DNA of 64,000 nucleotides, taken from assembly GCA_017654735.1 (NCBI GenBank), contig JADPYG010000089.1, forward strand, positions 630,001-694,000, given 5' to 3'. The position numbers and the translations under genes were made by a program. Position 1 is the stretch's first letter. Each line of letters starts with the position of its first letter. The notes below the pieces were generated by a model. It was not told where the DNA came from and made no database searches. It saw only the letters and a program-made list of their open reading frames with translations. Positions 17,437 through 43,588 of this stretch are shown here, piece by piece. Origin of the DNA: Vishniacozyma victoriae (lineage: Eukaryota; Basidiomycota; Tremellomycetes; Tremellales; Bulleribasidiaceae).

Positions 17437-18755
17437 CTACGTTTGATACGGGTCCTTCCCACATGCCGAACAACACGGTGCATCCTCGCGATTCTTCAGC
17501 ACGATTTTGCCTCGCCATCGGCCATCCAAAATACCGTCGAGTGCGGCTTGGATGCCCTGGAGATTGCTCGGCTCAAAGTCTTGACCCGTGCTTCGAGCAA
17601 TGTGTCCGTCCAAATCGACATGGATACAGTAATTGTATACCTCGATAGTCGTAGTGTCGAGAGGGATATCTTCAAGTGGTACGACCTGGAAGTCATTCGA
17701 GTGCAGGAGCAGGCCTTGGTTCTCGTCGGTCAGGCTTTCATCCAGGTCTTCGACTATCGGACCGACAATGTCGTTTGGTATAGTGTCCCCATTTCCTGCT
17801 CCGATAATGACTCGAGGAGTCTGGAATATATAGCGGTTGACTGAACCGATCAAAATGGGCGGCAGGTGCATATCCTCCTCGCCGGCTTCTTCGGGAAGGT
17901 GATAGGTGACGGTTTCGGGGCTAGTGAGTGGCCGTGTGTAGTTGTGCTTGAGCGCCAGCGGACCCGAGCGGCTGGACTGGCAATAATGCTTGACACTCTT
18001 CAGACCAACCAGGTGATGAGGTATCGGCCTGGGAAGAAGTTTGTTGGAGGTGATGGAAAATCTGTCGCCCATCTGATCCCAAATCGGGAAGATGTAGCCC
18101 AGCGCCAAATCCGACCATGGAGCGTCCCAGGTCTTGCATCCGTCTCCGGCCATGATGACTCGCTCAAGTCTAGCGAAAGCCTGTCTCTGGTCTGGTGACT
18201 GGCCGGTGTCGGACTCAAGGTCTTCTGACCAAACGGCTCGACTGGTGTTCGTTTCTCGATTGGTGTTCACTCGATCCAATTTGTCGATGGCGGTACGACC
18301 CCAAACTTTGTCGGCGTAACCTTTATCCTTCTTGGCTCGAGTAACGATCCCGCGGTGGTCTTGTCTACCTGACTTTTTGCCATTCTCTTCCCATCTCCCC
18401 TCGCACAACAAGTTGAAATATTGCGGTTCGTCGTGGCTGTGGTCGATAGGATGGTATAGTCGAAGGGTAGTGACTTTGTTCAACAAGTACTCCATTCTGG
18501 ATTGAGGTTCGAGCTCCTTGACAAAGAGGTCGAAGTCGCCCACCAAGCATTCTTTATATAAGAATGGTTCTACGATAGTGCAAAAGAGCTGACATCAGCC
18601 ATGTCTGTCATGTTGAGAAGACCCACCTTTGAGACTCGCATCATTCTCGCCAAGTCCCGTTGTTGATCCAGCTTGGTTTCAAAATCGGGGGGACTGTTGG
18701 TGGCCAGCATTGATTCGACTATCATTTTGTATATCTCCGGTTTGAGTTGTACCAT
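17437..18755 (-). CDS. F-box-like family protein, paralogue A
   Basis: Member A of a local expanded family of unknown function. Exon 1 (18755-18627, 43 residues) is F-box-like (MVQLKPEIYKMIVESML ... DLARMMRVSK). A 38-nt intron follows VSK in phase 0. Exon 2 begins LFCTIVEPFLYKECLVGDFDLF, then KVTTLRLYHP, LKSVKHYCQSSRSGPLALKH, LPPILIGSVNRYIF, IEVYNYCIHVDL and WRGKIVLKNREDAPCCSACG. Total is 426 residues. The first 19 residues equal those of paralogue F, and the ends (CCSACGK) also match, so A and F are closest relatives in inverted orientation. Known F-box proteins link substrates to SCF ubiquitin ligases; that role here is inference. Confidence 0.82.
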
Positions 18756-18910
18756 GATGGATGATGTGAGTGAGAGATAGAACGTTGTTGTTGTACACCA
18801 TTGTTGACAAAGAGCGATAGAAGCATTGGATACTGCATAAACACACACAAAGATATATAGTTCCCTGAAAAGCATTGACCCCTTTCTACTGATTGTATCT
18901 TCATTTGCAT

Positions 18911-20213
18911 TCACTCAATAAAATGATAAGTCGTGCCTACCATGCGGTCATGATCCATCTTTATTTCTCCTTCAAATCCACAAGCCGAGCAAGGGGGACA
19001 TTCCGCACTGTTCTTCAAAAAGACTTTTCCTTTCCATCGGCCGATTCGTTCATTGAATATCGATTGAATAGGGGCTAGATCGAGCGGTGGATCAGTAGCT
19101 TTGGGGAAGGGATCCATCACGTCAACAAATTTGAAATATCGAATGTAATTGTAGATTTCGATCCTCGTATTGTCCAGCGACACCGAGGGGAATGAAAGAT
19201 ACTCGAAATCGGTGTCGTTCTTGACATGTAGAACCGGTCGTTCCCCCAACATGACTTGCAAGCAAAGTAGAACCTGAGCAACACTCTCAGCAATCTTGTC
19301 CTCCGCTGCATCGATTGAGCAAAGTAAATCATCCTCGCAGCGGAACATATATCTGTTGGTGGCGCCGAGAACGATAGGCGGTAGCCATATCAAGCCATCT
19401 TTCGAAAGCATTTTTGGAGTATGCATGGTAACGATTGAGGGGGGATTGTCGATCTTGATGACGTGATTGGGTAAAGCGAATGGTCCGGTGGGAAGTCGCT
19501 GGCAATAATGTTGGACGCTTGGTAAATCGAGGAGAAAGAGAGGGACCGGAGCTGGCTCGAGTCGCTCTGCAAAGCTGGTGAATTCGGATTGGAACGATCC
19601 CCAGGTCGGGGTGATCTCTTCGGCCGACATCGTGATTCGCTGAAGGTGACGTAGAGCAGGACTTTTAATCGTAGCCAACTTGAGAGCTAGGACAGCGGGT
19701 CCATAGAGGAATCTGTCGGCGAATCCGTCTTGCTGCATGGCCAACTGCAAGGGCCTATAGAAGTCACTTGCTTTCCTCTTGGCGACCAGGTAAGGCCACT
19801 CTTCGTTGGACACCAGCTGGAGGTAGGTCGGTTCTTTCAAAAGGCTGGTATCGGCTTCGTATAGTCGCAACGTCTTCACTCGACCGAGTAGATCAACTTT
19901 GTGCGGACTTGACGATATATCTTGTACGAAAGTATCGAGATCGCCTACTAGACAATCGTCGTACAGCTCGGTTTTGCAAATCTCGTACATGATCTACTCG
20001 TCAGCAAAAGGGATCGATGACCATGCTCACCTTAGAAACTTGCATGAGGCTGACGAGATTGGCCTGTCGACGTTGTCGCGAGGGCGCCGACAGCACGCTC
20101 GGGCTTCTAATACATTCGGCTGGTAGGGCGGCGGCATTGGCTTCGGCGTCGTCATCTGAGGAGACCAACGCTTTGACGATGAGGCGGTATATCTCTGGTT
20201 TGAGCTGTATCAT
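18911..20213 (-). CDS. F-box-like family protein, paralogue B
   Basis: Member B, 421 residues. Exon 1 (20213-20031) reads MIQLKPEIYRLIVKALVSSDD and ends NLVSLMQVSK. A 37-nt intron follows at the conserved position. Exon 2 opens IMYEICKTELYDDCLVGDLDTFVQDI, then RVKTLRLYEAD, EPTYLQLV, ITMSAEEITPTWG, LPSVQHYCQRLPTGPFALPNH, WLPPIVLGATNRYMF, VSLDNTRIEIYNYIR and GRWKGKVFLKN, then CPPCSACGF. The insertion between the F-box helices is longer than in A (ALPAECIRSPS). It is tandem with C and D on the same strand and most like C. No transmembrane or secretion signal is seen. Confidence 0.82.
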
Positions 20214-20449
20214 GATAGTGTACAAAGATGGAAAGGATGCGGTTCAATGAAAGGGAAGAAACGGCTAATATTTACCACCCCAGATTTAGAAGCAAAATGC
20301 ATATACGAGGACACACAGACACACACATATTACCCTACTTCAGATCTCAGATCTCCTATACTCATGTTCTCGCCTACATACTATCTATCGATATCACACC
20401 ACTACCTCGACTTGAGATGTCCACCTCATTAACTTTCATTGCCGAAATA

Positions 20450-21717
20450 TCACTTCATTCCCGTATAGTCCTTCCTGGGATGCCCTGCAAACCCGCAAGC
20501 TGAGCAAGGAGGACAATCCTCTCGGTTTTTGAGAAACACCTTGCCCTTCCATCTGCCAATCCTCTCGTCAAACAGCCTTTGAATATGAATGAGATCGTTA
20601 GGCGAGCGGTCGTTTCTATCCAAACTCGTGTGGCGAATATAATCGTACATTTCGAGCCTCGTATCGTTGAGAGAGACCGAGTCAAACGAAACGTACTCGT
20701 GACCGCTGGACTTGGCGTGTAGTACTAGGCGAGGACCCAACATGGTCATCATAGGCGCCACAAAGCAAGCCAAGTGGCCGAAGCTCATACTCTCTCCGTT
20801 ATCTCTCGAAGCTACTTCGTTGTTACTGTTGAACATATATCGATTAGTCGTACCGAGGACGATAGGTGGAAGCCAATCTGGGCCCCAATCTTCGAGCATA
20901 TGGGGGTAATGAAACGTAACTATGTCGGGGGGATTATCGATCTTTATGATGCGAGTTGGTAGAGCAAGAGGACCGGTGGGAGTTGTTTGGCAAAAGTGCT
21001 TGACGTTGGGCAGGCTGGCGAGGAAGATGGGGACCGGTGCCGGAGGAAGCGAGTAGGTAAACGCGTGGTATTCTTCCTGGTCACGTCCCCAGGGGAAGCC
21101 CTCGGCTTCCCCGGACATGATAACGCGTTCAAGGCGGGCGAAGATATTTGAGGTCGAGGAAGATCGGGCGACGGACCTCTCCAGAGCCTTGATTGTATGT
21201 CCAGACATGTATCTATCCGCGAATTCGGGATCCTGAAATGCCTGCGTCACTCCCGCGAAATAATCCTTGCTTTCTTTTTTGGGGACAAGTAACTGCCACT
21301 TCCCTTGTGTGATCAGTTCGGCATAAGAAGGCTCCTTCAAGAGATAGAAGTCACTCTGGTAGAGTCGAAGAGTTCTCATTCGACCGAGGAGCTCAATCTT
21401 CCGTGGGTTCGAGGATATGTCTTGTGCGAAAGTGTCGAAGTCGCCGACTAGGCAGTCTCGGTATAATTCGGCTTTGCAGATATCGTAAAAAATCTGGTGA
21501 TTAGTCTCGCAACCTGAAGTAGCCATGCGCTCACGTTTGATACTCTCATCAAAGCGGCAAGGAAAGCTTGCTGATCTCTAGTAATCAATGTCGCCGAGGT
21601 GTGCGATGCGATGAGTGGCTGTTTCGAGTTGGCGGAAGATCTGCTCCTGTGTTCACCATCAGGAGCGATTAGGGCTTTGACGATTAGGCGGTATATCTCT
21701 GGTTTGAGCTGTATCAT
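20450..21717 (-). CDS. F-box-like family protein, paralogue C
   Basis: Member C, 408 residues. Exon 1 (21717-21535) starts MIQLKPEIYRLIVKALIAPD and ends FLAALMRVSN, so Asn replaces the usual Lys at the splice site. A 41-nt intron follows. Exon 2 reads IFYDICKAELYRDCLVGDFDTFAQDI, RMRTLRLYQSD, EPSYAELI, VIMSGEAEGFPWG, LPNVKHFCQTTPTGPLALPTR, WLPPIVLGTTNRYMF, VSLNDTRLEMYDYIR, DERIGRWKGKVFLKN and CPPCSACGF. The frame is intact throughout. Its 5' region shares the start context and the long F-box linker with B, which suggests a tandem duplication. Confidence 0.82.
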
Positions 21718-21968
21718 GATGACGAGTATGATTGAGAGATACAAGAGGGTTACTAGGGTCCTTGACAACGCCTCTCGTGAATTGCTGAGAAAGGGAAGCA
21801 AGAAGCATGTTACATCCACACAAACACAATAAATCGTGCCCTGGAAAGGACTGTGCAACAAGAACCCTTATATACTGTTCATATCGGGATATATACATAT
21901 ACAGCATGTGCACTTGCTTCAATAGCGCCCTTGTCATCGTAGATCCAGCTATGTATCCTCCACTTGCC

Positions 21969-23251
21969 CTATGCCTTCTTGTATTTCCAGAACCCCTCAA
22001 ATCCACAGGCCGAGCAAGGCGGACAGGATAGTCTTCTCTATTCTTCAAAAAAACCTTGCCTTTCCATCGTCCCATCTTTCAGTCCAGAATTGACTGAATT
22101 CGAGACAGATCAGTCGGGTGGCGTTCTATAGTCTTGATGTCGAGCCCTGGACCAGAAACAGTACAGTGGCGAATATAGTCATAAATGTCGACCTTGGTTT
22201 CCTTGAGCGAAACCGAGTCGAAAGGAACGGTTTTGCTCTCATTGGGTTCGACATGAAGAACGGGAATCTCATTAAGCATTACTTTAAGCGGCTCCAAATA
22301 ATGAGCGATGTCCTCGGGGGGTAGGATAGTTCCCGGTTTATCGCTTGACAACAACAGGTTGATTCCGTTGCACATGTATCGATTCGTAGCGTCGAGTACA
22401 ATAGGTGGTAGCCACAAGGCACCAGTCTCTACGAACAAACCCGGATGATGTACCGTAACAATCTCGGGGGGGTGTTCAATCTTCAGAATCCGGTTTGGTA
22501 GAGCGAGGGGCCCAATCGGACTTGACTGGCAATAATGCTTGACGCTGGGAAGGTCGGCAAGAAGAAGCGGGATTGGAGGAGGGTCGAAGACATTGTTGAA
22601 GTTGCGGAATTCCTGTTGAATGACACCCCAGGGGAATGACTCGGCTTCTCGGGTCATGATGACACGTTCGAGACAAAAAAAAGGTCCCTGGGATCTGGAC
22701 CTCGAGTCTACCGCCTCTTGAATAGATTTGGCCGCTGGGCACAAAAGGAACCTTTTGGCGAAGGCCGGGTGATCCGATGCTAGCCGCATTTCCAAGAAGC
22801 AGTCCTCAGATGTTGATACCGATCCTGATAGTGTCCATTCGTCGTCCAACATGAGGTGTATGTATGTCGGTTCTTTGAACGAATGACCATCTCCGTGGTA
22901 TACTCGGAGGGTCTTGATGAGAGCCAGTTTTCCGACTTTTCTCGGGTTCGTTCCGATGTCTTGAGCGAAAGCGTCGATATCCGCAACTAGGCAGTCCTTG
23001 TATAACTCGGTCTCGCATATTTCGTACAGCTTCTGGACATTAGCCCAGTAGGATACACTGCTGCTTACCTTCGAGACTCGCATCAGATTCGCAAGAGACG
23101 CTTGATTACCCCTTCGAATGGCCGTTGCCGGGAGACCGAATGTTTGAGCCTGCTCGTTATGAACAGCTGGAGGATTGTTGGTATCTCCTTCCGATGAGAT
23201 GAGGTATTTGATGATGAGTCGATATACATCGAGTGGGAGTTCGGCTGGCAT
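21969..23251 (-). pseudogene. F-box-like family paralogue D, 3' end decayed
   Basis: Member D keeps most of the family plan. Exon 1 starts MPAELPLDVYRLIIKYLISSE and ends NLMRVSK. A 36-nt intron is followed by KLYEICETELYKDCLVADIDAF, LPSVKHYCQSSPIGPLALPNR, WLPPIVLDATNRYM and VSLKETKVDIYDYIRH. In the last part a TGA at 22079-22081 replaces the Glu codon of the family's DERIGRW motif. Past it, KMGRWKGKVFLKNRED continues in the same frame. Five extra bases at about 22026-22030 then push the cysteine motif out of frame. The family stop would be near 21969. The product may still be a protein of about 388 residues lacking the CSACG tail. Confidence 0.8.
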
Positions 23252-23426
23252 TGCGATGTATATGTGATACAATAGAGCTGGAAAATGAAGACGGTTGGTC
23301 GTCAAGCAATCCAAGAACCCAAGAACTCACAAAATCCAGGGACCTCTGTGTGTGTACGTCGTGGCCGGTGGATCAGGCTCACCCAATATCCCCAAACATC
23401 TTGAACTTACTTCACGACTTTCGCCA

Positions 23427-24608
23427 ATGACGATACCAGCATTGAAACCGGATATCTTAAGGAGGGTAGTCGAATTCGCGTTAGAGTCATGTGTCGTTTC
23501 CGAGGATGATCCCGCTACTCAGCTGGAGAGACAGAGGTATTTGGGTAACTTGATGTCGGTATCCAAGGTGGGTCCTTTATGATGCTGCAGCAGCGTGGCT
23601 GACGAGAAGATCTTCAAAGACATATGCACACCGCAGCTATACAAAGACTGCCTCATTAGCGATGTCAACAAGTTCCTCGCCGGTCTGGAGAAGGGGCCCT
23701 TCTCCCGAAAGTCTCAAGCACTTACGACAACCAAAACACTCCGAATCTACGCTTCAAAATATCGTCAAGGAGCTACCTATAAGGACCTTTTCGGAGGCAC
23801 CGCCGAATGGTTGGACGTGGGGAGTGCACGAGGGATCAATTATGGAGTCTCTTCCGAGATGTCTGATCAAATCTCATTCGACTACTTGAGGAACGATGTA
23901 GGCGCTTTAAGGATTAAACTCGGAAAGGTAAAGCGGAGCGCAGTATTCGGATCCGTAGAGCGAGTCTGCATGTCGTCGACCGGTGATCAAAGTTGGGGAA
24001 CGCACCATACTCATCCCCCTGTCGACGCCAACTTTACCACCCCGGCGCTACCTATTCGTCTGCTCTGTCTACCCAGCGTCAAGTACTTCTGTCAGTCGAC
24101 CATGCTTGGACCCTTGTCGCTCGGATGGACCACGATCAAGCTTAAGAATCCTCCAAAAGTCGCTACTTTCCACACCAGCCATATCAATCTCTGGGCGGAT
24201 AAGGACAATCTTCCCCCGATCATATTAGGAGCAGTCAATCGATATATGTCGACCGGATTGACATATCATACGATAACTCCCGATCTCATATGGAACGAAG
24301 GCACCGCCAGGGTCTTTATGCCTCTCTTGGCTTTCTTCACCTCGCGATCGGTCGGCATAGAGAACGACGGTTATTTGGACTCGATCTCGGAAGATACTGT
24401 CTCCTTTGCCGGCACCACGATTGAGATATACAATTTTGTCGACTGGTATCCCGGACCGACAGCGCACCCAAACCTCACCCGGGCAGACAGGCTGGCTTTA
24501 GTTCAAAAGTTTGTGGATAAGCATCTTGGGAAGTGGAAGGGGCGTGTTACCTTGATGGATAAAGCAGACTGTCCTCCCTGTTCAGCATGCGGGTACGCGT
24601 ACAAGTGA
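23427..24608 (+). CDS. F-box-like family protein, paralogue E
   Basis: Member E, 379 residues, divergent from D with only 175 bp between start codons. Exon 1 (23427-23567) reads MTIPALKPDILRRVVEFALES and ends NLMSVSK. The intron is at the conserved position. Exon 2 begins IFKDICTPQLYKDCLISDVNKFL, then TTKTLRIYASK, VERVCMSSTGDQSWG, LPSVKYFCQSTMLGPLSLG, LPPIILGAVNRYM, TTIEIYNFVDW, HLGKWKGRVTLMD and CPPCSACGYAYK, then stop. It is more diverged than B-D and shares LMSVSK and STxLGPLSL wording with G, so E and G may form a subgroup. Confidence 0.82.
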
Positions 24609-24824
24609 GGATGCAAGAGGGACAAGGAGAAAAGAGTGTTGGGTTCTGTCGAGGACATATCAGGAGCTGTGAGATCGAATACTTTGGCGTAGGGAATAAA
24701 TCGAGGTCAAGATAGATATTATGGTCATGAATATAAATATAGATATGCTTACAATAGAAATACAACAACCGACCATCCAAGAGTTCCCAAGAATGTCAAC
24801 AAATTTTCTCCTTCCTTTCACCAG

Positions 24825-27800
24825 TTATACATCTTCCCAAACTCCCACAGACTCCCCTCTTGCCCATCTTCCCCTCACATCCAATTCTACCACATTATCA
24901 TCCTCATACGTGACGAGATATAATGGTGATTTCTCTTTTCGCTTCTTTATCTCTTTTGGCTTGTCCATCTGGCGAGTTGATTCAGATGCAAGGGTGGATG
25001 TGGGTACAATCGGTGGTAAGGCTAATAACGATTGACTTTGATTTCCTCTTGACTTTGGTTTTGGTTTTGCGGTGGGAGCAGGGGGTGCATTAACTCGTGA
25101 AATGGGAGCGGTGGAAGTATTGGTTCGTGAGGTCGAAGCGAGTGGTCTCCTAGACACTGGTGCCGGTGGTGGGGGTGTAAGATCATTGTCATCGTCGGAA
25201 GAACACAGATCGATTATATCGTTACTCGATTTAGCTTGTTTCGAAAATCGCGCACTCCGTCTCGGGCCTCTTCTCGGTGGGATCGATCTAGGTGTCGGCT
25301 CTTTTCCACCATGACTTTCCCTTCCGGATGAATTGGGTGGACGGGAAGATGATACCGACGCGGTACTAGACGAGAAAGGGCTGCGCCGTACATTCCTTCT
25401 GATTCTCTCTCGGGAAGGTAACGGTGAACTGGGCGGAGGTGGTGTGAGTGTCGAGTCCCTACTAGCTGATGGCCTGTACTCGAGTGGCTCTTCTTCTTCC
25501 TCTGGCGCTTCTGCTCGCTGACTCGTAGGTGGACGTTGTGTCTGAGTGAAGAAGGACTTGAATGCCGCGGTGTTCTCCCCTCCTTGATCCCTCGTTGATT
25601 TCTTCAACACTTTCTTGGCTTTCGGTCTCGGTTTAGCTTTCGCCGCTAGCTCCTCCTCGTGTGCCTGGATCAATTCCGGCCAAGCTTCCTGGACGAGATA
25701 CTCGGCTATCCACAATCGGACTTCCGCCTTCTGGACCGGAACATCGGCCTTGTCGCCAGCATCATCCTTGCCGACCAGACCCAAATTTGCGCGTTCTGAC
25801 TCCTCCAAATCCTTCGGATCCACACGATGTCCATCCATTACATCATGGCATCTCTTGATGTAGGCGGTCGGAGTAAAGGAGATTCGGAGTTCCTTCAGCT
25901 CGGGATTGGTAGGATCTGGTCGAGAGGAGTGGATCTTGATGACATGGGCAGGCATATCTTGGAATGATTTGCGGGGTTTGTTTGGTCGGGAAGTCGATCG
26001 AGATGGTCCAGAGGTGGACTGGAAGAACGAAGTGATATGTGAATCTCTTGGGACATCTTCCTGATCCACCGATTTGGTCTTTGTCTCTGACGGCGCAGGA
26101 TCTCGAAGTCGAACACGCTCTCTGGCGCAAGTGACCAGTTCCGACCCGAATAGCCCTACACTCTCGCTGGCGAACTTCTTGGCGACTAGATCTTTTGTTC
26201 CCCATTCAAAGAACTTTTCGCAAGCCTTGGCAAAGCTCTCCATATCGCCTCTTCCCTCAGATCTGGCCTTTCCCCTCTTCTGAAACACAGCCTCTCCATT
26301 GCCGAACCCCGGCCATCCTTGCGATGGATCGTCCGACGAAGTTGCTGGGCGGAGGTATGCGTCGAGAGCGAACGCGGGAAAGAGGGTCAAGGGGTCTTTG
26401 ACTTGAAGTTCGGCTGCTCTGGCGGGATATCGTCGACCTAGATGACCCGAGGCATTGCTTTGCAGTTCGTCGATCATGAGGGCGTGTACTCTGGCGACAT
26501 CGACTTCGTTGATCGGGCGGCCAGCTTTGTAGCGATGTAGGAAATATGCCATCCCTGCATTGGCGAGGGCGTAGGTGATGGTCGGACCTAATTGTCAGTC
26601 GGACAATCTGGGTGCACCACCACGACAACAAAGTTGACAACTTCCAGGAGCAAAAACAAAAAGGTGGATGGAAGTAGAGATAGAGACGGGACCAGTGGCG
26701 TTGTTCTTTCGTACTTGATTGAATGGCGACAGACGGAGAATACGGATCCGAGCAGAGATGAATGTATCCTCCCTACGAGTTCCTACTGATCATGCCTTCT
26801 TTTCCTCGGCTACGGTTGCCATTCACCTCTAGTGTGAACTGGGCTCCTTGAACCAGTGCATATCCCGAATCCAGCTTTCACACGCGACAGTCCACTCCTC
26901 CCATTCCACACCACGCTGCCGCTAGGCTCGGCTCGCTAGCTAGCGGGTACCAGGCAGTCGTGCGTATCAATGCACTACGTCCATCACCGCGGACCAATGT
27001 AGTCCATACTTCTGACCAGTCCTAGTTCTCATGTATCGAGAACACGAAGAAGACCCGAAGCCAGTACACGTCCATACCCCGCCTCACATACACTAATTCC
27101 CGCGTTCCCCGACCCATGCAGTCCAAATTCCCCTCTAGCCAGAAAGTTCGGGAATATGGTCGAGACCCCGACTCACACATCCATATATCTCCTCATGTAC
27201 ACGGCAGGCTGCGTTCTCCGAATCCATTTCAATATCGAGAACTCACCAAAGCCAGTCAAGCCTTCCGGCGCATAATCCCCTCCGCCGAGCAAAGCTATCC
27301 AGACCATCGCCATCCTGCAGTCCTCCTCTGTTCTCAAGCTCGTACCGTCCTTGTCCGTCCACTGTTTGACAATCGCCGAGGATCGGTACATCTCATAATG
27401 CCTTAAATCCGGTTTCGACGAGTTCGATTGTGTTGAGGATGCCTGAGCCCCAGATAGAGTTGGCGAGTTGCTGATATCAGCTTTGTACTGTCAAAGTACG
27501 TATAGCTTACTTTCTGAGTAGGCAGGTAGCCCCGAACAATAGCGCATCGACATCATCCGAAAGTACGACGTCAATCTTGCCCTGTCGGTTCATAAGAGCG
27601 AGTTCAGCTTCTGCTTCTCCAGGTGCCTGGCATGAGTAATGCTCCAGTTGCTCACTCGAGGGGAAAACCTACGTTCCACCACTCAAGACCACAAGCATCC
27701 AAAAGTTCTTTGAATTGTCGAGATCGGTAGTCGGAAGTACCAAATTGACCAGCGACTTTCGTTCCACGCTTCTGAGAAGGCTTCTTAGGTCCGTCTGCCA

Positions 27801-28184
27801 CTTAGCTGGTCCTGATACCGGTTTGGGAGAGCTTACCAAACACAAAGACAGGCAAGACGGGATGTTGTAGTAGAGAAGTGATCTTGAAGAATATGGTCCT
27901 CATGAACGGGTTCTCACCATACTGTGGGACTTGAGCATGAAAGATCCATATCCTGTATGTAAGCTGCTTGTCGATTGAGCTAGGTACCGAGCTAGCTTAC
28001 GAGGCGTCGATTCCTATAGTCAACGCTCTTCGACCATTCTTGTTATTGTAGAAAGCTTCCCGAGCTAGCGTCGACAACGATGTCCGAGTCGCGGCTGGCC
28101 GGAGTAGCTGTTTACATCAGTTATGTTTCGAGCTACTTCAAGCGACGAGGGGTCACTTACGTCCCAAAGACCCGGTACACCCAT
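24825..28184 (-). CDS. GEN1: GEN1/Yen1-type Holliday junction resolvase (XPG/Rad2 superfamily)
   Basis: A nuclear structure-specific endonuclease that cuts four-way junctions and flaps. The start at 28184 gives MGVPGLWD, the GEN1/XPG N-terminus. It is spliced to LRPASRTRTSLSTLAREAF and TIGIDAS, then WIFHAQVPQYGENPFMRTIFFKIT and PVFVFDGPKKPSQKRG. The metal-binding acidic residues are visible in APGEAEAELALMNRQGKID, VVLSDDVDALLFGA and the LLGGGDYAPEGLTGFGPTITYALANAG helix-hairpin-helix part. The long C-terminal exon has a chromodomain-like area (RISFTPTAYIKRCHDVMD ... VRLWIAEYLVQEAWPELI). A Ser/Pro-rich tail with EEEEEPLEY and basic patches follows. One intron (26588-27246) is exceptionally long. 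Total is about 840-860 residues. Confidence 0.9.
26588..27246 (-). other. Unusually long intron (659 nt) in the GEN1-like gene
   Basis: The exon ends LTGFG at a GTGAGT donor (27241-27246) and resumes as PTITYALANAG after an ATTAG acceptor at 26588. Introns elsewhere in the window are mostly 35-60 nt. No protein frame in it looks real. It contains a GC-rich palindromic patch around 26930-26950 (GGCTCGCTAGCTAGCGGG). Confidence 0.7.
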
Positions 28185-28411
28185 ATTAGTCCATGCCTTT
28201 CTCCTTTCAGTAGCCTTACGATATCCAAAAAGTATGTATATGGATATGATATGAACAAAGACAAGGTATATCAATGTCAACAAGTTAACGCAGATGCTGA
28301 TGATGAAATAGAAAGCAGTCACGAGGAAACCACGTGGTCATGTGCCTGAATCCCTGAGACCGTTGTTGAGATAAGAATTTTGTGCATTTTAACATCATCA
28401 TCATAACGACA

Positions 28412-29927
28412 ATGAGCGCAAGTACAAGTACACAAGAGCATAAGAAGAGCAAACGCAAGTCTGTAGCTGGTGGGAATGAGGGAGGAGATGTGACTGTCGT
28501 TTTAAATGAAGCTTCTTCGAGCGCTGGACCTGCCTTCCGTAAGTCTTGACCTAGCTCTTCAGAGTAGGCTTAGCTCACCTGTAGTAAACTTCCCCTCGGT
28601 CCGACCCTCCAAGTCCACACCCTATACTGTCTATTCTCGAGAGATTGGATCATCAAAGGAGATCTCCAAGCAGAGGACTTGCATCGCAGGAGAGACTGAG
28701 GATGTCGAGTTTTTCAGTCTGAACAGGGATTACCCATCATCAGAAGCAGCAGATTGCCAGTAAGCTCCCATCACCATCCTGGAAGTGTCAGCTAATGATC
28801 AGGTACCTACCTGGACTATACGACCCCGACACCAATACCTTGACCCTTACTCCCGCTCCACTATACCTCATGTCGCATCGAGCAAAACGACTCAAGATGG
28901 CACCTCTTTCAACAGCAGCTACAGCCGAGGCACAAGTACAATACAGAGCTCAGAGAAATGACCTTGGAGAAGCATTCGGTACGAGGAAAGCCAAGTCGCA
29001 GATCAAAGCGCAAGAACGAGGGAAGGTCAATGCGGCAGCTATGGAGAGTGTCAAGGACCATTTGATGGATTCCATCGTTGTCAACGAGGAAACCGAGGGT
29101 GAGTCACTTGAATAGAAGTATGAGCGACAGCTGATGGTAGATGTCAATGCCCCGAGCGCGTTCATTCCTGTACCCAACATGACGACTGATGATGTTACGC
29201 GAGTCTACCCACGCGAATCGATTGTCCCATCCGCTGAATGGGCTGTCATCGATATCAAGCCCTTTATCAGGGCCAAAGATGAGAAAGAAAGATTGGGCCA
29301 TCTACCAAGCCGTCATTCTGCTTGGGTCAACAACAAGCTCGGCGAAGTCATTCGAGGTCCAGCAGAACTTCGCAAGGATAACATGTATGTCACTTCAACG
29401 TTCGAGGGAAATGAGCTGATGTGTAGTAAATACCTCTATTACCTATCAATGCTCCAAGATTTCAGCCGTAAAGTCAGCAAAATCGCTACTCTCAAGCCAT
29501 CCGAAATGGGCGAACAGTTCCCGAATGTCCCTTCACAAATCATTACCGGCCTATTGGACAGATTTACGGAGAAAAGCGGCAAGAAATATACCCTCACTGA
29601 TAGCCGAAAGACCAAGATTATGGCTTGGCAGTGTGTTCTTTACTTGACGATCGATGGATGGAGTACGGATATTAGCAAAGTAGCTACCGATCTCAAGATG
29701 AAACCCCCAAAGTCAGTATTTCCTTATACCTTGTCAGGATGGTGAGCTGATGGACCAGGGTTCAAGAGATGTTCGTGAATCTGGGATGTACGACTGATGT
29801 GCTCGGACCTGCGGAGAGGGAAGAGAGGGGATTATCGATGGCTGCGGCACGAGAGATGCGACGAGCAGTCCTCAAAGCGCCGGTCAAGTTCCCCAACGTC
29901 AAGCGAAGAGGACCTGTCAAGAGGTAA
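28412..29927 (+). CDS. RPA49: RNA polymerase I subunit A49
   Basis: A49 (POLR1E) forms a TFIIF/TFIIE-like heterodimer with A34.5 on RNA polymerase I in the nucleolus, helping initiation and elongation of rRNA. The start at 28412 gives MSASTSTQEHKKSKRKSVAG. Exons join to FPSVRPSKSTPYTVYSRE, YLPGLYDPDTNTLTLTPAPLYLM, LGEAFGTRKAKSQIKAQERGKV, VYPRESIVPSAEWAVIDIKPFI and HSAWVNNKLGEVI. The tandem winged-helix region follows with YLYYLSMLQDFSRKVSKI and a VQEMFVNLGC segment. It ends APVKFPNVKRRGPVKR. About six short introns are present. It is divergent from the GEN1-like gene, with 227 bp between the starts. Confidence 0.93.
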
Positions 29928-30144
29928 TCACCGTTATCTTGTATTAACTACTATACATATTGAGATCTATATGTACAGATTGGACTCACACTGAATGACC
30001 CGTACAGGCAAATAGCCAAGGGATGGTGTTTGTCAGGGAAGTGCTTGTGTGTAGTATTCCATGCTTCTATTGTGGCTTGATAAACAATGACCCGTCGTCA
30101 AGTCTGCTCATTTCCATCCATTCTCACTCCCATTATTCACCAAT

Positions 30145-31609
30145 ATGGTACAGCTCAAACCGGAGATATACAAGATGATTGTGGAATCGATGCTGGCCAC
30201 CGAAGCGCCTTTCGACCACAACACCAAATTGGATCAGCAACAAAGCTTGGCAAGAATGATGCAAGTTTCTAAAGTGAGTTCACTCCCCTTTCTGTGCTCA
30301 AGTCTCTTCGAGGGCGCCGTCTGGGATTGAAACTGGTGAAGGAAGGTAGATTCAGATGACAACTTTCATATTGGCGTGGACGTCAATGGCCTAGTTTGAG
30401 GATTTGGTTGAAGGGATCGTTAATTTGTAGAGAATTGGCTGATGATAGCTCTTGCACTCGATCTGCGTACCCTACCTATACAAAGACTGTCTCGTCGGCG
30501 ACGTCGACCTTTTCACCCGAGGCCTTGCGCCGAGATCTCGAAAAGAACACCTATTGAACAAGGTTACCGCCCTTCGACTCTACCATCCTTTCGATAGTCC
30601 CGACGAACCGTCGTATTCCGAATTACTCAGTGATGGCATGTGGACGGAGAATGGGAAGAAAGCCAAGATTCACGGCCACTCCGACCACGTCCGACGATGC
30701 TTTCAAGATAAGGCCTACGCCGACAGGTTCTGGGGTCGAGACGCCGGCAACAGACTGCGAACCTCGATCACGGACGGCGACATGGTCTTTGCCAGGATGT
30801 CACGCGATTGTCAGCCCGAATGTTATACCGATAAGGCAGCATTAGAAGACGAGGCATTCGCAAACCTGGAGAGCGTAATCATGACCGGCACTGGCGATCA
30901 ATCGTGGGGCGAATCTGGACTGGACGATTTCAAGCTCCCTTTCGACGCCTACCCGCAAATGACAACGCTTTATCAGCTCTGCGGTATTCCTCGAAAACTC
31001 GATCCCAAACTGGTCCCTCACTTTCTCCTCGGACTTGAAGGTAACAAACACTATTGTCAAACCAGCTTGGCAGGGCCCATGGCGCTCGAGAACGAAATCA
31101 TCCAAGTCGTCAATCCACCCGAGATCGTGACATTCCACATTAACCACCGAATTATGGAGGAGGGGATAATGCCTCCCATTGTGGTCGGAGCCATGAATCG
31201 CTACATGTTCGGAACTGGTACAGTCATGATGTGCGACTCTGAAGGCGACTACGTGGGGCCAGGGCAAGTAGTGGAGATCTTACGTCCACTCCAAAACATG
31301 CTCAACCACCGAAATCAGTGCTTGACTTTGTATCCGGGCACTTTTGATCCTCTCCCCTTCGAAGAAATCCCTTTGTACGAGACCACCACGATCGAGCTTT
31401 ATAATTACGTCCGACACCTCGATATCGATAACGTGGACCCGATCACCAGAATGGGACCGAGTAACCTCAAAGGTATCCAATACCAGCTCGATCGATCCAT
31501 CGGCAAATGGAAAGGCAAGGTCACTTTGAAAAACAGCGAGGACGCCCCTTGTTGTTCAGCTTGTGGCAAAGAACCCGATCAAAGGCATTTGATGATGGGC
31601 AAGCAGTAG
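30145..31609 (+). CDS. F-box-like family protein, paralogue F
   Basis: Member F, 429 residues. Exon 1 (30145-30273) is MVQLKPEIYKMIVESMLATE ... SLARMMQVSK. Its intron sits at the family position but is about 175 nt, versus 36-50 nt in the others. Exon 2 opens LLHSICVPYLYKDCLVGDVDLF, then KVTALRLYHPF, EPSYSELL, VIMTGTGDQSWG, LEGNKHYCQTSLAGPMALEN, MPPIVVGAMNRYMF, TTIELYNYVRHLDI, GKWKGKVTLKNSEDAPCCSACG. It is nearest to A, on the opposite strand. An internal segment (SRDCQPECYTDKAALEDEA) is longer than in B-E. Confidence 0.82.
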
Positions 31610-31888
31610 TGAAGAGGATGGAGTCGGGATGGAGTCATGACAGATTCCAGTGGTTTGGCGTGGAGAGGCAAGGTAGCAGAGGATGTCAATAGAAGTAGGA
31701 GATGACCGCTCAAACCGGCATGCAGCTTGATATTCGGAGTCGATCAAACATCGTACACTATCAGAACCAGACCGAAATGATTCAATGGTATCCATCAACT
31801 TCCTACATATCTGCAACGATCTCCCTCAAGTCCCTGGTCCTCCTCAGCACACGGAAGCACTCTGAGCTTTTTACTTTTCCCTATCCTA

Positions 31889-33180
31889 TCAAGAACGAAT
31901 TTCCAAAGACATGACGCTACCGAGCGCCGGCTTGGTAGTATCCGGGACTCGACACGCCGGACAAAGCGGAATTTCGTCAATGTTGTGGAATGAGACTTTT
32001 CCCTTCCAAGGACCAATTTGAGTATCGACGAGTCGTGCGAGAGCTTGTCGTACTTTCAAGTTGAGCGGCTTAATGTCTTTCTCAATCTCGGGACGAGCTC
32101 GACCTGGAACCGGATGGGGAGACGGCATCATCATGTCGCCGACCATATTGTACATTTCGATTGTAGTACCATCGAGAGAAACAGAAGCGAGGGGGACCTG
32201 CTTCCACTCTTGATCACCGGGGTGTTGTGGCGACTTTTGAACTTGCACGACCGATCTCTTGAACATTGACAAGATCGATACTGATAGTCCGTTGATCATG
32301 TGGTTTCCAATATCAGAGGGGATCGTAGACTGATAGGTGCCGAGTTTGAGTGGACAGCAAGATATGTATCGATTAATCGCACCAATCACAATCGGCAGTG
32401 ATTCTGGCCAATGGTCGTAAAGCTCGCTATTAGCGATGTGAAAGGTGGCGACTTTTGGGGGATGGAGGAACTTTTGAATAGTATTCGAAAGGGATAAAGG
32501 GCCGAGGATGCTGGACTGGCAGTAGTATTTGACGGTCGGCATCTTGATCAGGGTATCCGCAAATCCCTTTGGCTGTCCAGACACGCGTACAGAGATCAGG
32601 TCATCGCTCCTGCCTAAAAGGACGACTCGCTCCAAATTGGGTAGGGACTGGTGACCATTACCCATCATCCTTCGATGCCATTGATCGATTTCGAGAAGGT
32701 ATCGAGTATCTCCTGTGAGTCGATCTAGCGTCTGCTGTACGGTGCGGATCGGGTCGTTTGGATATCGTAAAGATCCCAAGCCCTTCCAAGCGATATGGGC
32801 ATCTAGTAGATCCCAGTATGGGGTATCGTATCGACTGCCTGTGGTGAATGACCCACTCGTAGTGTTTTGACTTTAGAAAGTTGAGCCTGCTTGGTCGGGT
32901 TTGGTGCGTGTGGATTTCGAGAATCGAAGAGTGGTTTGAAGAAAGAGAAAGGTTGGTAGGTGGCACAATCTTGGTATAGCTCGGCAGTACATAGCTCATG
33001 AAAGATCTGACAGAGTAAGCTATGGCTGACGAGAGCAATCACTTTACTCACCTTGGAAACACTCATCAAGTTTGCCAAATCTCGCTGTCGTTCCCTTTTG
33101 GAAGCCATTGTTCCATCATCGACGGCACAAGCCTGATGGATGATCTTCTGTAGTATCTCTGGATGTAATACCGGTAGCAT
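31889..33180 (-). pseudogene. F-box-like family paralogue G, frame broken by a 5-bp tandem duplication
   Basis: Member G starts MLPVLHPEILQKIIHQACAV and ends exon 1 with NLMSVSK at 33052. A short intron follows, then IFHELCTAELYQDCATYQPFSFF and KVKTLRVGHSPQ. The frame then breaks at TATCG TATCG (32824-32833, plus strand): a directly repeated 5-mer. The frame closes at 32803. Beyond it the family sequence continues in another frame with WDLLDAHIAWK, LERVVLLGRSDD, MPTVKYYCQSSILGPLSLSN, PIVIGAINRYI, VSLDGTTIEMYNMV and GPWKGKVSFHN, then CPACRVP. The second half is well kept, so the lesion is recent or a sequence error. G is tail-to-tail with F. Confidence 0.8.
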
Positions 33181-37996: not shown

Positions 37997-38444
37997 CTTG
38001 ACGTTGAGGTTGGAGTTTAGTTCGAGTGAATTGACGAGTGTATGAAAACGGAGATTGGGGGACTAAGAAATCGACTGGTCGAGATTATATATCAGAATTG
38101 GCCGAGCCCGGCAGATACCGATCATGTTGGTCACTGGAGGTACTAGGCCAGGTGGACAGGAAAGGAAGGTGGCTTCTGGCGAATAGCGTTGATACGGCGG
38201 GAGGAGCTGACTCGAGGAGGAGTGGAGGAGTAGTTGATTCCGGGAGGAGCTCTTCCGACCCTATCTCGACGCCTCCTCCTCCGGTCAATGTGGCACCTCC
38301 AGGAGGAGGAGGTGCAAGATAGTGAGTGATACACTAGTACTCGGGGCAGGCTACTATAGCTAATCGTCTCAGGTATAAGACGAAGACCTTGATGCATCAC
38401 TGGATTACAAGTCCAGTTACAACACCCATACCTCACTTGACATT
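37997..38444. promoter_or_regulatory. Divergent promoter between RidA and the 2OG oxygenase, with purine-rich inverted repeats
   Basis: 448 bp between outward-facing starts. Around 38269-38280 the strand reads CCTCCTCCTCC, and around 38301-38311 GGAGGAGGAGG, giving an inverted repeat with a loop of about 20 nt. Upstream are several GGAGGAG copies (38200-38250). Confidence 0.5.
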
Positions 38445-39878
38445 ATGGCACCTAGCGCCCCCTTCCAACCACCTCCAGCCGATGGTCCTGGCAAAGTTCA
38501 CATTGATAATTGGGTTCCACCACCAGTCACCAAGCAGGTCGACAATTTTGCTCAGCTCTCCACCATCGATTTGAGCCTCATGGATAGCGATGATCCTGCT
38601 GTTGTATCCCGACTCGAGCAGCAGATCAAGAGAGCAATTCGAGAGGATGGGTTCTTGTTCCTTGAAAACTACGGTGTAGACATCGATCAGGTCCGTACCA
38701 CGTTAATATGTTTTGGCGTATGCTGATAAGATAGCTACATCGACAATTTGGACTGGCTCAGTACTTGCATAGCAACATGAGCGAGGAAGATAAGCAGCGA
38801 TTGCTATTTCATCCCGAGACTGGGCAATGGGCAGGGTACAAGCATCCTTACGGATTCAAGGTAAGCCAAAAGCTCTGAAGGTTGGAGACTGATGCTGATC
38901 GACAGCGTCACCGTGCTGTCAAGGATGGTATCGAACAATTCAACTGGTACTCTCGAGAATGGCAAGATCACAATTACGTTCCAGAATGTATTCGACCATT
39001 TATGGATGAGATCCAGGCATTCTCAGAGGTACTTCCAGGTTGATCACCGTCATGGTGTCTATGACTGACGATCAGTACCTCACCAACTCGGTCAACCGTC
39101 GCCTTCTCACCTTGTTCTCTCGAGTCCTAGAGCTAGACGATGACTACCTTTGGAACAACGTCCAGTCCCACGTCGAAGGCTCAGCGACTGGTGAAGGATA
39201 TTTCCGTCACGCCATCTTCCGTCCTGTCGAAAAAGCAACCCAAGAAGCCGCAAAGGGACTCAAGATGCACGGTCATACCGATTTCGGATTAACGACACTT
39301 CTATTCTCGGTCCCTATCTCGTGTCTCCAGATCTGGAAGGATGACCAGTGGGTTTACGTACCTTACAAACCTGGATGTTTGGTTGTCAATATCGGTGAAA
39401 CTCTCGAGATCGTCTCTGGAGGCCACTTCAAGGCGACGAAACATAGGGTTTACAAGCCTCCTGCTGATCAGGCTCACGAGGAGAGGCTGTCGATTGTGCA
39501 GTTCAATTCGTCGGTCGGTGATCTACGAATGACCCCTGCAGCTGGTGAGCAATATGACTACCAGTTCATACAGCCAGCTGACTTGATAGCTTCCCCTCTG
39601 ATTCAGCGAGAAGGTTGTATCGATTCTCAGGGTATCTACAGCGAATTCAAGAGATTGATTGATCAAGGTGTACCAGTAAGTCTAACCCCCTCTATGAAAC
39701 CGTCTCTGGCTGATCAAAGGTACCTACGAACCGAGAATGGCGAGAGATCCAGATTACGACCTGCACTGATCCTACCGATACGAGCATGAACAAGATCGGG
39801 GTTCATCAAACGATGCTGGATGGGAAATTGATGTTCCAGAGAGAGTATCTTGGTGTCAAGGTTTTGTTGCCCGTCTAG
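38445..39878 (+). CDS. 2-oxoglutarate/Fe(II)-dependent oxygenase (isopenicillin N synthase-like)
   Basis: A cytosolic non-haem iron oxygenase of about 400 residues. The N-terminal DIOX_N-like part reads NFAQLSTIDLSLMDSDDPAVVS and AIREDGFLFLENYGVDIDQ. The double-stranded beta-helix has the iron ligands in HGHTDFGLTTLLFS (His-x-Asp) and in FKATKHRVYKPP (His). The 2OG carboxylate-binding Arg/Ser is in ERLSIVQF. The C-terminal exon begins VPTNREWREIQITTC and ends REYLGVKVLLPV. Five short introns are present. Fungal relatives act in secondary metabolism or breakdown of small molecules; the substrate is unknown. Confidence 0.88.
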
Positions 39879-40035
39879 TTAGGTATCGGTAGTTGTAGCA
39901 CATTAGATTTTAGTCTTGTTGGGTAGTCATGGATGCACAGATTCAATCTTGATCATGTTCGCGACATACAACCTAAGAAACGACGTAGTGCATGATACAA
40001 CAGGACTACCCTTACAATCTGCACGACGAAGCCAA

Positions 40036-42170
40036 TCATATGACCAGGGACACCGCCTCCAGCTCATCCAGCGATTTTAAAACCGCCCGACCGACTCCCC
40101 ATTTTGACCGGGTCGCAAACACCTTTTTGATCCACTCCAACATCGTCCCTAAATCGCCAACTCCAATACAACCAGCCACATCCCCGACTCCCGCCCGAAT
40201 CAACTGCCAAGCTATCAGAGCAGCTTTGAAGCTGTATATTGTGACCCATGGGGATTCACTCATTGCCGTCTGAGCTGGTGTTCGATCAAGGTAGGATAGG
40301 AAGAATTGAATATGCGGTTCGAGCGATTCGACCACTTGGTCGGATATGATTATTGGCTGAGCTACCGTTAAGTGGGTTCTGCCGGTCAGTAGGTGTCACC
40401 ACGAGTTAGCAGAAACCTACCCGGCGGCTAGAGCGGCGTCCAATGAGCCTTCCACCACGCCATTTGTATGAGGCGTTGACCACAGCAAGAGCTCGATCAT
40501 CGACATATGCCAAGTTGCCTCGCATACAACCGCCATCCTCCCGTTCTGCGGGGATAGATCCATTGTCCCCTCTAGCGCTTTCAATGAGGAATGTAGGGCC
40601 TACCATCAGCACGATCGAAGATGGTTTAACGAAAATACTCACCTCAAACCGTTCAAACGATACTCTGCCCGTCATTGTAGACCAACCCGATTGCTCCCTC
40701 ACACTACTCAGCATAAACAGGATAATCAACAATCCACCATGCGCATCATATTTTGGCGAACAGCTTGAGTGGTTGGGGCTCATACATGTCCTTACAGCCT
40801 GTATATACCGACTGGGACCTTGATCGGTGGATTTGCCCATCGTCAGACTTCGGTGGGCCCAATCTGAAGAGGTCGATGCTGTCCAGGTATCCTGGGGACA
40901 TGGTAATTCCAGTTTGATTTCCAGGTGGGATATCGTCCGTGGTATTGATAAGATGTGGTACCACATTACATCGAATTGATATAGAGCGAAGAATGTACGT
41001 TTATGCGATTCCACTCGAACGAATTGGCGCCATAATGTATCTAGGTCTGAAGCGTTGGAAGAGGCAGGGAGAGGTTCTGCCAATCCACCAATTCTCGCCA
41101 GCTATACTATCAGCGTCATAGATCATCCTTGCATGAGATTGTACCTCAATAGCTCGAGTATGTATCCTCAGACCATATGCTGTCTCAAATCCACAGGTCG
41201 ACATGACAGCATGCATCTCAAGCAGCAAACATGCTTGAATAGCATGCAGCTCTAACCCAGAAGCGATCTTGTTCTGCAGATGATCCGTTTCCAACAATTC
41301 CCGTCCTCGGTGGAAACACGCTTTAGCAAGTCGTGATCCATGTTCCTCATCTTCCATATAGAGTAGCCCCAAGCTGAGCACACCCATAAGCAAAGGTTCC
41401 GGTATGGAGGAAGAGTCGAAAGTGGGTTGATGTAGGAATGGGAAGACATGTGCTGCATTGGCGAAGAACAAGTGGACGCCTTGTTCGGTATGATGGTTGG
41501 TGACTAGGCTGACGGGTACCGGTGGAGAGTAAATTGGAGGATGAAGGCGGCCAAAGGAAGAGGGGTCAAAAACGGTTGATGGTAGCGGAAATACCTGATT
41601 TGGATTGTTACCGCTTCCTTGCCATCAGCTATTATTCGGTTCGTCTGACTCACCTGATGCACCATTATCACTAGTCCGGGATGGTCCGCTCACGCTACCC
41701 GACAAGAGCTCCTCTATCGACATCTGACTTCCGCCGAAGGAATCCATCATATCTCCCCCGAAGAGACTGCTAAAGTCGTCTGCCGCAGTGGATATGGCAG
41801 CATTTTGGGGTGCTGATGATCTTGAGCCTGGATCCGAGACTGCTTGCGGGTTGCTCGAAGACGAAGTAGCCAATGCGGTCGTAGATCCCTCGGTCAAGGG
41901 CGCTTCGGGGTGTTTACGCTTAATATGCCGTCTCCTCAGGTCGCGACGCGAAAAGACCGTCGAGCAATGAAAGCATGGGAAGGCGATATCCTTCTCTCTC
42001 TGAGCATGTAGAGCTGAATGTCTCTTAAGATTTTCCTACATAATCAGCGCTGACATGATGAATGGGCAGGGATGTACATGACGGGTAAAGCGCTTTTGGC
42101 ACACCAGACACTGGAACGGTTGAAGACCATCACGAGGTGGAGATGGTGATACTGAGGAGCCCCTGGACAT
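40036..42170 (-). CDS. C2H2 zinc-finger plus fungal-specific domain transcription factor
   Basis: The start at 42170 gives MSRGSSVSPSPPRDGLQPFQ. Two classical C2H2 fingers follow: CLVCQKRFTRHENLKRHSALH and CFHCSTVFSRRDLRRRHIKRKH, split by a short intron after TRH. A Ser/Asp-rich activation-like segment (DDFSSLFGGDMMDSFGGS) leads to the fungal-specific domain. That domain reads FFANAAHVFPFLHQPTF, LLMGVLSLGLLYMEDEE, ELHAIQACLLLEMHAV, LWRQFVRVESHKRTFFALYQFDVM. It then continues ATWHMSMIELLLWSTPH and VTIYSFKAALIAWQLIRAG. Length is about 620 residues with seven or so introns. It may control the nearby oxygenase, RidA, aldolase and MFS genes; this is inferred from position only. Confidence 0.85.
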
Positions 42171-42191
42171 GTTCTGCTGTATGTTGGAAGT

Positions 42192-42206
42192 TGTGTGTGT
42201 GTGTGT
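42192..42206. repeat. Short (TG)n microsatellite
   Basis: About seven TG dinucleotides lie just upstream of the C2H2 regulator's start codon. The tract is short but the only clear dinucleotide repeat of its kind in the window. Confidence 0.7.
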
Positions 42207-42310
42207 CATGTGATCAGTAGTATTGAATCAGTCACATGCCCATTGGCCAAGATAAGGAGGTAGTCGGTACCTTGGAGGAGCTCCTCCCGGATTCAATGTC
42301 ATGCTTGATT

Positions 42311-43588
42311 TTATGGTACAACTTGTAAAAGATCGCCAATGACTCCCTCTGATAGATATACAGACGATGCGTTCTCTCCTTCCGGTACCCCTTGTATCTT
42401 CCATTGCTCCCTTGGGTCCAGGTCACAAGCCCGGCACGGCGAGGCTTCCTCCCTATTCTTCAAAAGTACCCTTCCTTTCCATTCCTCATCCACATATGAC
42501 TCCAGCGTGTCTTGAAGGTGTTCAAGCGATTCCGCAGGTCTATCGGCAAGTCCCATGGCTTTACCGTTGGTGTGAGGGAAAGCAAGATTGACCTCAGGAG
42601 GGTGGATTCGGACATGTCGTATAAAGTCGTAAAGTTCGATGGTGGTGTTTCGAAAGTCTTTCGTGGTGATGTGTGTACCGCTGACGGTCTTGCGAGGCTT
42701 CATGTATGTTGGCTGAAACATTTGAATAATCATGATGAGAATCCCATACAACTCTTGCGCTGATACATTGAAGTTCATCCCGTCCATCGATACCAGGGTA
42801 TGATTACAGGAAAAGTAGTACCGATTGACGGCACCGAGTATGACCGGTGGCATGCCGCCAGGGTGCGGACTGGGCCCATGACCGGGTACAGCGTGGTAGG
42901 TGAATGTCTCGAGTGGTGACTTGACAGTGAGTAAACCGGAAGGAAGGGAAAGTGGACCGACTTGGATCGATTGGCAGTAATGTCGGACCGTCGGTAGGTC
43001 AATCAGAGCGTTTGCGAGTTTACGGTCGTAGCACCCCAGAGAATATCCAAGCGGATAGTCTGTCCATATAGATTCCCTGATTCCTCCCATCACCACTCTT
43101 TCCAGCCGCGGCATGATCGGATCATGAGGACACACTTTAGCAAGGTGCTTGGCAATATCGGCCAATTGGGCATTCTCCTTCAAGAGCGCATAGGTGTCGA
43201 GCGATTTACGTCCACTGAGGTTTTCCCAGCAGTTGCGAGTGATGAGGTCTTGGTATGTCGGTTCTCGAAGATGATCGTTATGAATGATGTGGAGTCGCTG
43301 GACTTGTTGAAGGGTTCTCTCGGGACCAAGCCAGCTTGCATGAAGGAGCATAGCGAGATCATCGGTAATGCAGTCGGCGTAGAGGGCAGGAGCACAGTCG
43401 TAGTAGAAAGCCTGAAATAAGCTTCTCGTCATGTTTGCTAGGCTCACCCTTGAGACTGTCAACAAGGGTAAAAGGGCGGCTTGATCCCGCTTGATTTGGT
43501 CGAGCGAATGTGATCGGAGATGTGGGGGTATCCAAGTACGAATCAAGTCGACTATGAGACGGAAATCCTCAGGTCTTATTTGTACCAT
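42311..43588 (-). CDS. F-box-like family protein, paralogue H
   Basis: Member H, about 413 residues after splicing, lies 9 kb from the main group. Exon 1 (43588-43448) reads MVQIRPEDFRLIVDLIRTW and ends LLPLLTVSR. The intron at the family position is in phase and 36 nt long. Exon 2 opens AFYYDCAPALYADCITDDLAMLL, then LERVVMGGIRESIW, LPTVRHYCQSIQVGPLSLPSG, MPPVILGAVNRYYF, TTIELYDFIRHVRI, EWKGRVLLKN and ASPCRACDLDPREQ. It has the most diverged ending: CRAC instead of CSAC, and about 30 extra residues after it. The frame is intact. Confidence 0.82.
   Translation of the reverse strand: MVQIRPEDFRLIVDLIRTWIPPHLRSHSLDQIKRDQAALLPLLTVSRVSLANMTRSLFQAFYYDCAPALYADCITDDLAMLLHASWLGPERTLQQVQRLHIIHNDHLREPTYQDLITRNCWENLSGRKSLDTYALLKENAQLADIAKHLAKVCPHDPIMPRLERVVMGGIRESIWTDYPLGYSLGCYDRKLANALIDLPTVRHYCQSIQVGPLSLPSGLLTVKSPLETFTYHAVPGHGPSPHPGGMPPVILGAVNRYYFSCNHTLVSMDGMNFNVSAQELYGILIMIIQMFQPTYMKPRKTVSGTHITTKDFRNTTIELYDFIRHVRIHPPEVNLAFPHTNGKAMGLADRPAESLEHLQDTLESYVDEEWKGRVLLKNREEASPCRACDLDPREQWKIQGVPEGENASSVYLSEGVIGDLLQVVP

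Follow-up and report, generated by a model that had tools for sequence, protein, structure and literature searches.

A single-site cluster of probable F-box adaptors with a putative LRR-like part and a near-invariant C...H...CxxC pattern in Vishniacozyma victoriae

In a stretch of 64,000 nucleotides from the tremellomycete Vishniacozyma victoriae (GenBank assembly GCA_017654735.1, contig JADPYG010000089.1, positions 630,001 to 694,000 of the forward strand; the whole stretch is called the window, and coordinates refer to it), ten genes, A to J, encode proteins that probably act as substrate adaptors of Skp1-cullin-F-box (SCF) ubiquitin ligases. As supported by profile comparison, their N-terminal ~60 residues, which are split by an intron, would form an F-box that docks on Skp1 of the ligase. 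The next ~350 residues are, with moderate support, predicted to form a degenerate leucine-rich-repeat (LRR)-like arch of irregular single-strand repeats that would hold the target, and an invariant Cys, an invariant His 27 residues apart from it and a C-terminal CxxC may together coordinate a single metal ion (zinc being the likeliest), which would clasp the tail back onto the arch and fix its shape. The copies, which lie in both orientations, would go back to old duplications and have remained at one site, each subfamily recognizing its own target, and D and G are proposed to be decaying or mis-assembled copies. The parts of this proposal are not independent of each other, and for SCF adaptors with both arch and metal clasp we consider the chances to be about even. 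The genes are the following:

Gene A, 17437..18755, minus strand: 426 amino acids; exon 1 (F-box) 18755-18627, intron of 38 bases, exon 2 18588-17437; intact.
Gene B, 18911..20213, minus strand: 421 amino acids; exon 1 20213-20031, intron of 37 bases, exon 2 19993-18911; intact.
Gene C, 20450..21717, minus strand: 408 amino acids; exon 1 21717-21535, intron of 41 bases, exon 2 21493-20450; intact.
Gene D, 22079..23251, minus strand: 378 amino acids; an in-frame stop precedes the WKGKV/CxAC tail; probable pseudogene.
Gene E, 23427..24608, plus strand: 379 amino acids; exon 1 23427-23567, intron of 42 bases, exon 2 23610-24608; intact.
Gene F, 30145..31609, plus strand: 429 amino acids; exon 1 30145-30273, intron of 175 bases, exon 2 30449-31609; intact.
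Gene G, 31889..33180, minus strand: exon 1 33180-33052, intron of 45 bases; frame broken within exon 2.
Gene H, 42311..43588, minus strand: 413 amino acids when spliced; exon 1 43588-43448, exon 2 43411-42311.
Gene I, 49561..50536, plus strand: 308 amino acids; exon 1 49561-49680, intron of 49 bases, exon 2 49730-50536; distant member.
Gene J, 50912..51938, plus strand: 327 amino acids; exon 1 50912-51013, intron of 43 bases, exon 2 51057-51938; distant member, in tandem to I.

The models of A to H were obtained by stop-to-stop reading of the window followed by splicing, the intron of H being read from the sequence; the splice sites of I and J were read by eye. An initial annotation of this DNA had described eight loci sharing a series of motifs, seven of them within 16 kb on both strands. 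The motifs are present in order in all eight, and A to G span 17437-33180, that is, 15.7 kb; this part of the description stands, whereas the two distant members I and J, at 49.6-51.9 kb, had been missed. The complete spliced proteins (A, B, C, E, F and H) comprise 379-429 residues, and in a seven-row alignment omitting G the identity to A is 28-50%. In all eight A-H copies a phase-0 intron directly follows the VSK/VSN/VSR of the F-box; its size is 36-45 bases, except for the 175 bases in F. As the 36-base intron of H is in frame, this gene can also be read as a single open reading frame (ORF) of 425 residues. Downstream of the stop in D there is tail-like sequence, the CxAC part of which lies in another frame. 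In G, the first frame of exon 2 stops at 32803 and the remainder is read in another frame (32872-31889), so that the gene is probably either a pseudogene or an assembly error.

The presence of an F-box is well supported, mainly by comparison with F-boxes of the same genome. A profile of the A-H N-termini aligned with 12 F-box domains chosen as clean at a probability of 95.0% (hhalign, score 40.4) and with the full set, which comprises 22 of the 30 F-box-like matches listed (19 above and three below cut-off), at 93.7% (score 37.6). When the columns of the A-H profile were shuffled 200 times, the best scores were 15.8 and 15.1, respectively, and blocks from column 90 onward reached no more than 12.5 and 11.0. 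By contrast, the Pfam cut-off for the F-box and F-box-like models, which is a detection threshold and not a biological criterion, was reached by none of the ten spliced N-termini. Five of them (A, D, F, G, I) gave sub-threshold F-box-like matches of 15.5-19.5 bits versus a cut-off of 24.3, and D matched the F-box model at 18.8 bits versus 20.5; for B, C, E, H and J no F-box-like match was obtained even below threshold. The structural model of H contains N-terminal helices at residues 6-19, 29-52 and 55-71, although at low confidence (block mean of the predicted local distance difference test, pLDDT, 44-66). Thus, the F-box-like start proposed in the initial annotation was borne out by the profile comparison, and the N-terminal helices it implies appear in the model. 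In all 21 pairs compared, similarity is higher in the F-box part than in the middle of the protein, most strongly in A-F (0.75 versus 0.43) and barely in B-C (0.49 versus 0.48). Gene conversion of exon 1 was considered, but fourfold sites of the N-terminus are not clearly more alike than those elsewhere (69/201 versus 317/991, summed over the 21 pairs; for A-F 9/17 versus 24/68), and we therefore prefer constraint. Domain annotation thus overlooks these F-box genes, in a genome with 19 other F-box-like matches above cut-off among the 30 listed. As none of the ten reaches the Pfam cut-off, the number of SCF adaptors in such fungi is probably underestimated.

For the part following the F-box, the initial annotation had recognized no known domain. 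Sequence searches agree with this as far as they go: Pfam searches with the exons and spliced N-termini gave nothing at cut-off for the family, Pfam LRR included, profile searches of the PDB gave no match (for H, two chance-level rows at E 1.2), a search of the window against Rfam gave nothing at cut-off for the family, and no profile search placed the protein in a known family. The structural comparison goes further, since the H model aligns mainly, if weakly, to LRR proteins, among them F-box/LRR ligases (best 50 rows); Foldseek gave weak rows for the model, the best at E 0.23. An LRR-like arch behind the F-box is therefore moderately supported by the model, and we regard it as probable, though less firmly than the F-box itself. 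A Cys-His-Asn protease-like triad (C246, H273, N294) was also considered and was set aside as less probable, because the best 50 structure rows are mainly LRR proteins.

The proteins might thus be viewed as a variant of F-box/LRR (FBXL) proteins, such as SKP2 (1fs2) and the plant LRR-F-box ligase 7sa1, with which they share an F-box at the N-terminus and, behind it, a region that in the H model aligns with LRR structures over most of the model. They differ in that their repeats are irregular, that no Pfam LRR or F-box model is matched at cut-off, that the F-box is split by a conserved intron and carries, between its LKPEIY and LMxVSK helices, an insert that varies in length, and that they possess a near-invariant C...H...CxxC. 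Cryptococcus Fbp1 is a Grr1-type F-box/LRR adaptor (PMC8787122; here and below, publications are cited from the portions available), and is likewise an adaptor of this plan in a probably related fungus, while the cluster proteins match no Pfam LRR. For C. neoformans at least 19 F-box proteins are reported (PMC8787122). In the accessible portions of the literature on expanded F-box families in Tremellomycetes and Kwoniella and on fungal F-box/LRR proteins we did not find the family described, and those on F-box, zinc, LRR and CxxC in fungi held nothing bearing on it. So far, this set of F-box adaptors has been found only in relatives named 'hypothetical protein'; as the initial annotation had held, the family appears undescribed.

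The third part of the proposal concerns four residues. In an alignment of 40 rows, consisting of seven window copies (without G) and 33 relatives and numbered after A, only four Cys/His columns are near-invariant, namely C246 (40/40), H273 (39/39), C416 (35/36) and C419 (35/36), the next-best column reaching 33/40. The distance from Cys to His is 27 residues in all eight window copies A-H. The full quartet is kept in 35 of the 40 rows, the exceptions being D, which stops before the tail, P0016, P0018 and P0033, the sequences of which lack the tail, and P0022, with the tail region apparently in another frame (relatives are given as P numbers). P0022, a relative of F, and D lose the CxAC tail at nearly the same place, apparently by frame change, which may be chance or reflect a repeatedly lost tail. 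A similar pattern occurs in the I/J family (22 rows): C157 is conserved in 22/22, H181 in 21/22, C303 in 19/20 and C306 in 20/20, and all four are retained in 18 of the 22 rows. Among the others, P0046 and P0047 stop short of the tail, in P0039 the first tail Cys is replaced by F, and in P0053 the His is replaced by T. In addition, C259 (19/20) and C261 (19/19) of I, which form a CxCG, and H113 (20/21) are near-invariant in this family and have no counterpart among the near-invariant A-H columns; they are possibly a second metal site.

The relation of I and J to the other copies bears on how far the pattern is shared. A genome search with the Pfam F-box-like model gave a sub-threshold match of 19.3 bits at window 49567-49701, the locus of I, whose protein shows F-box, C...H and a CxxCG tail. 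Both genes carry the same phase-0 intron as A-H, here after VSS/ISS, and their proteins end in CQVCGE (I) and CMACGEK (J). The F-box and ~30 residues beyond it align with the A-H profile at 74.6-83.4% probability (hhalign). With larger profiles of 40 and 22 rows, the tail segments are collinear with a score of 27.0, compared to 24.8 for the best of 200 shuffles; the C...H segments are also collinear, but their score of 17.6 was reached by 24 of 200 shuffles. The likeness is thus supported at the tail and weak by score at C...H, where J reads LPAQHICQ at the position of LPSVKHYCQ in D. Judged by sequence, two families hardly alignable outside the F-box show a C...H...CxxC pattern.

Because the quartet is near-invariant in A-H and a similar one occurs in I/J, we infer that it may bind a metal, most simply zinc, and so clasp the tail to the arch. 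In the H model, residues 381-390 of the tail have a mean pLDDT of 92 with almost no regular structure, as would be expected for a packed knuckle. For the clasp taken by itself, we likewise put the chances at about even. It should be noted that a survey of ORFs of at least 140 amino acids at 20 loci around 22 of the 30 listed F-box-like matches yielded a single ORF ending in CxxC, which is a weak control since such ORFs are exons. This ORF (locus L045) lies on the minus strand, on the same strand as and just downstream of its F-box-like match; either it is an exon read on into the following intron, or it hints at a further relative.

The strongest competing explanation, to which we give about one chance in three, is that of ordinary F-box/LRR-like adaptors without metal, in which the Cys, His and CxxC are structural core residues or act in redox or disulphide chemistry and the tail caps the solenoid. 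The evidence for F-box and LRR-like part needs no metal, and other residues, Q247, G252, T271, R295, T356 and Y361, are equally invariant. However, this leaves unexplained why near-invariance among the Cys/His columns of A-H is limited to four, of which two form the CxxC, and why a similar set recurs in I/J; moreover, stable disulphides are unusual in cytosolic proteins.

A more far-reaching idea, which we regard as rather unlikely, is that the cluster supplies the fungus with a set of SCF adaptors responding to metal or redox state. Here, the Cys and His in neighbouring repeats of the LRR arch and the CxxC would coordinate either zinc or an iron-sulphur cluster, acquiring or losing this cofactor would free the tail and switch target binding, by analogy with FBXL5 in animals and independently evolved, and such adaptors would have multiplied in one chromosomal cluster. 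FBXL5 carries a [2Fe-2S] cluster in its LRR domain (PMC12241848, PMC11126956) and, in the portions of the literature available, is the only F-box/LRR precedent we met for a metal cofactor in that domain. The likeness lies in the general F-box/LRR layout and in a metal cofactor of the LRR domain, the latter being a proposal for the cluster proteins. Their candidate ligands C246, H273, C416 and C419 (Cys, His, CxxC) differ from those of FBXL5. FBXL5 also has a hemerythrin domain, for which the ten pieces scanned gave no Pfam match at E ≤ 1; the cluster proteins begin directly with the F-box. FBXL5 is thus at most a parallel. Should the metal site be real, an old single-site cluster with a shared Cys-His-CxxC signature would offer a compact system for metal control of F-box proteins outside the FBXL5 case.

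It is also unlikely that the proteins work outside SCF or as decoys, binding Skp1 without target degradation, or that the family is mostly drifting towards pseudogenes. F-box proteins outside SCF are known (PMC3814724), D and G are damaged, and P0022 lacks its tail as well, apparently through a frame change; yet six of the eight A-H copies as well as I and J are open, and the invariant residues are retained by relatives from several subfamilies.

The preferred proposal of SCF adaptors derived from old duplications is in line with the distribution of relatives. These were collected in three protein searches yielding 19, 20 and 20 proteins, the second repeating six of the first; as the search reaches only proteins sharing short exact words, the family may be wider. 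No relative carries a precomputed Pfam domain, and the sole name is 'hypothetical protein'. The nearest relatives are 89% identical to A, 83% to F and 93% to I (over 72% of I). In a 41-row tree built from the eight window copies (for G, its longer piece) and the 33 relatives of A-H, starred support joins A to P0003, E to P0004 and P0006, F to P0001, G to its close relative P0031, and B, C and D, in uncertain order, to P0002; H, which has the longest end branch among A-H, is placed unsurely with P0029 (80/63). Since the window copies group with relatives by subfamily, the subfamilies are older than the split of the species from the sources of these relatives. Fourfold sites at conserved residues outside the F-box region are 20-43% identical (21 pairs, seven genes) and thus near saturation. 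Both observations make the cluster look old rather than a recent burst, judged without a rate from ordinary genes of the species, and they do not support the 'fast-evolving' of the initial annotation. A rapidly evolving family for recognition of self/non-self, as suggested there, or of pathogen targets is the least likely of the explanations considered: local multi-copy clustering, strong divergence and damaged copies would suit it, and F-box families with rapid turnover exist in other lineages, e.g. Caenorhabditis (PMC8665587), but no evidence for it emerged, the fourfold sites and the sorting of relatives into the same subfamilies (nearest at 83-93%) speak against it, and the most invariant residues lie within the putative target-binding arch, which is mildly adverse. 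Pairs of relatives report an identical longest-contig size (P0024/P0033, 10008; P0020/P0029, 4897; P0044/P0048, 5209; P0012/P0022, 29018), which suggests that family genes adjoin each other in other species too.

Within V. victoriae the family appears confined to this site. When the 33 relatives and 17 exon pieces of the window were compared with the window (tblastn, E ≤ 0.01), all 381 matches fell into the eight A-H loci. The genome (11.58 Mb, 17 contigs) was searched with H, F, C, E, I and J, leaving aside A, B, D and G; F, C and E matched other members with E down to 1.5e-109 and H down to 3.9e-31, and no significant match was obtained outside the cluster, the one row found there (query J, contig C14) having an E of 0.09. 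Strongly diverged copies may escape, as the search proceeds by single exons and its counts for large families are minimum values. Nearly half of the assembly is contained in one contig (C11, 5.39 Mb); the assembly may be incomplete or contain one very large chromosome. The N-terminal exon of the HSP90 of this genome has its best PDB match in 7k9r, from Cryptococcus neoformans, with 9 differences in 110 residues; this and the shortness of the introns fit a tremellomycete basidiomycete.

The start codons of D, the probable pseudogene, and the intact E lie head-to-head, and with only 175 bases between them (23252-23426) the two genes may share one promoter region. A shared motif was sought in ten upstream regions; the best 9-mer, the low-complexity TTTGTGTGT, occurred in 6/10, while 16 control sets reached at most 5/10. 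Several genes outside the family lie among the A-H copies or, in the case of TTI1, beyond H:

24825-26594: GEN1-type resolvase.
29116-29745: RNA polymerase I A49.
39010-39789: exon of a 2-oxoglutarate (2OG)-Fe(II) oxygenase.
41.0-42.0 kb: fungal transcription factor with a sub-threshold C2H2 finger.
43764-46994: TTI1.

No common function of the cluster genes and these neighbours is evident. Elsewhere in the window, a nearly complete GH42 beta-galactosidase domain is encoded at 5050-6474 on the plus strand (Pfam E 1.2e-141), near an exon of a fungal transcription factor (8031-8483) and GH43/beta-xylosidase exons (10557-11761). GH42 is a mainly bacterial family, and the region may be a cluster for sugar use in which one gene was perhaps acquired by transfer.

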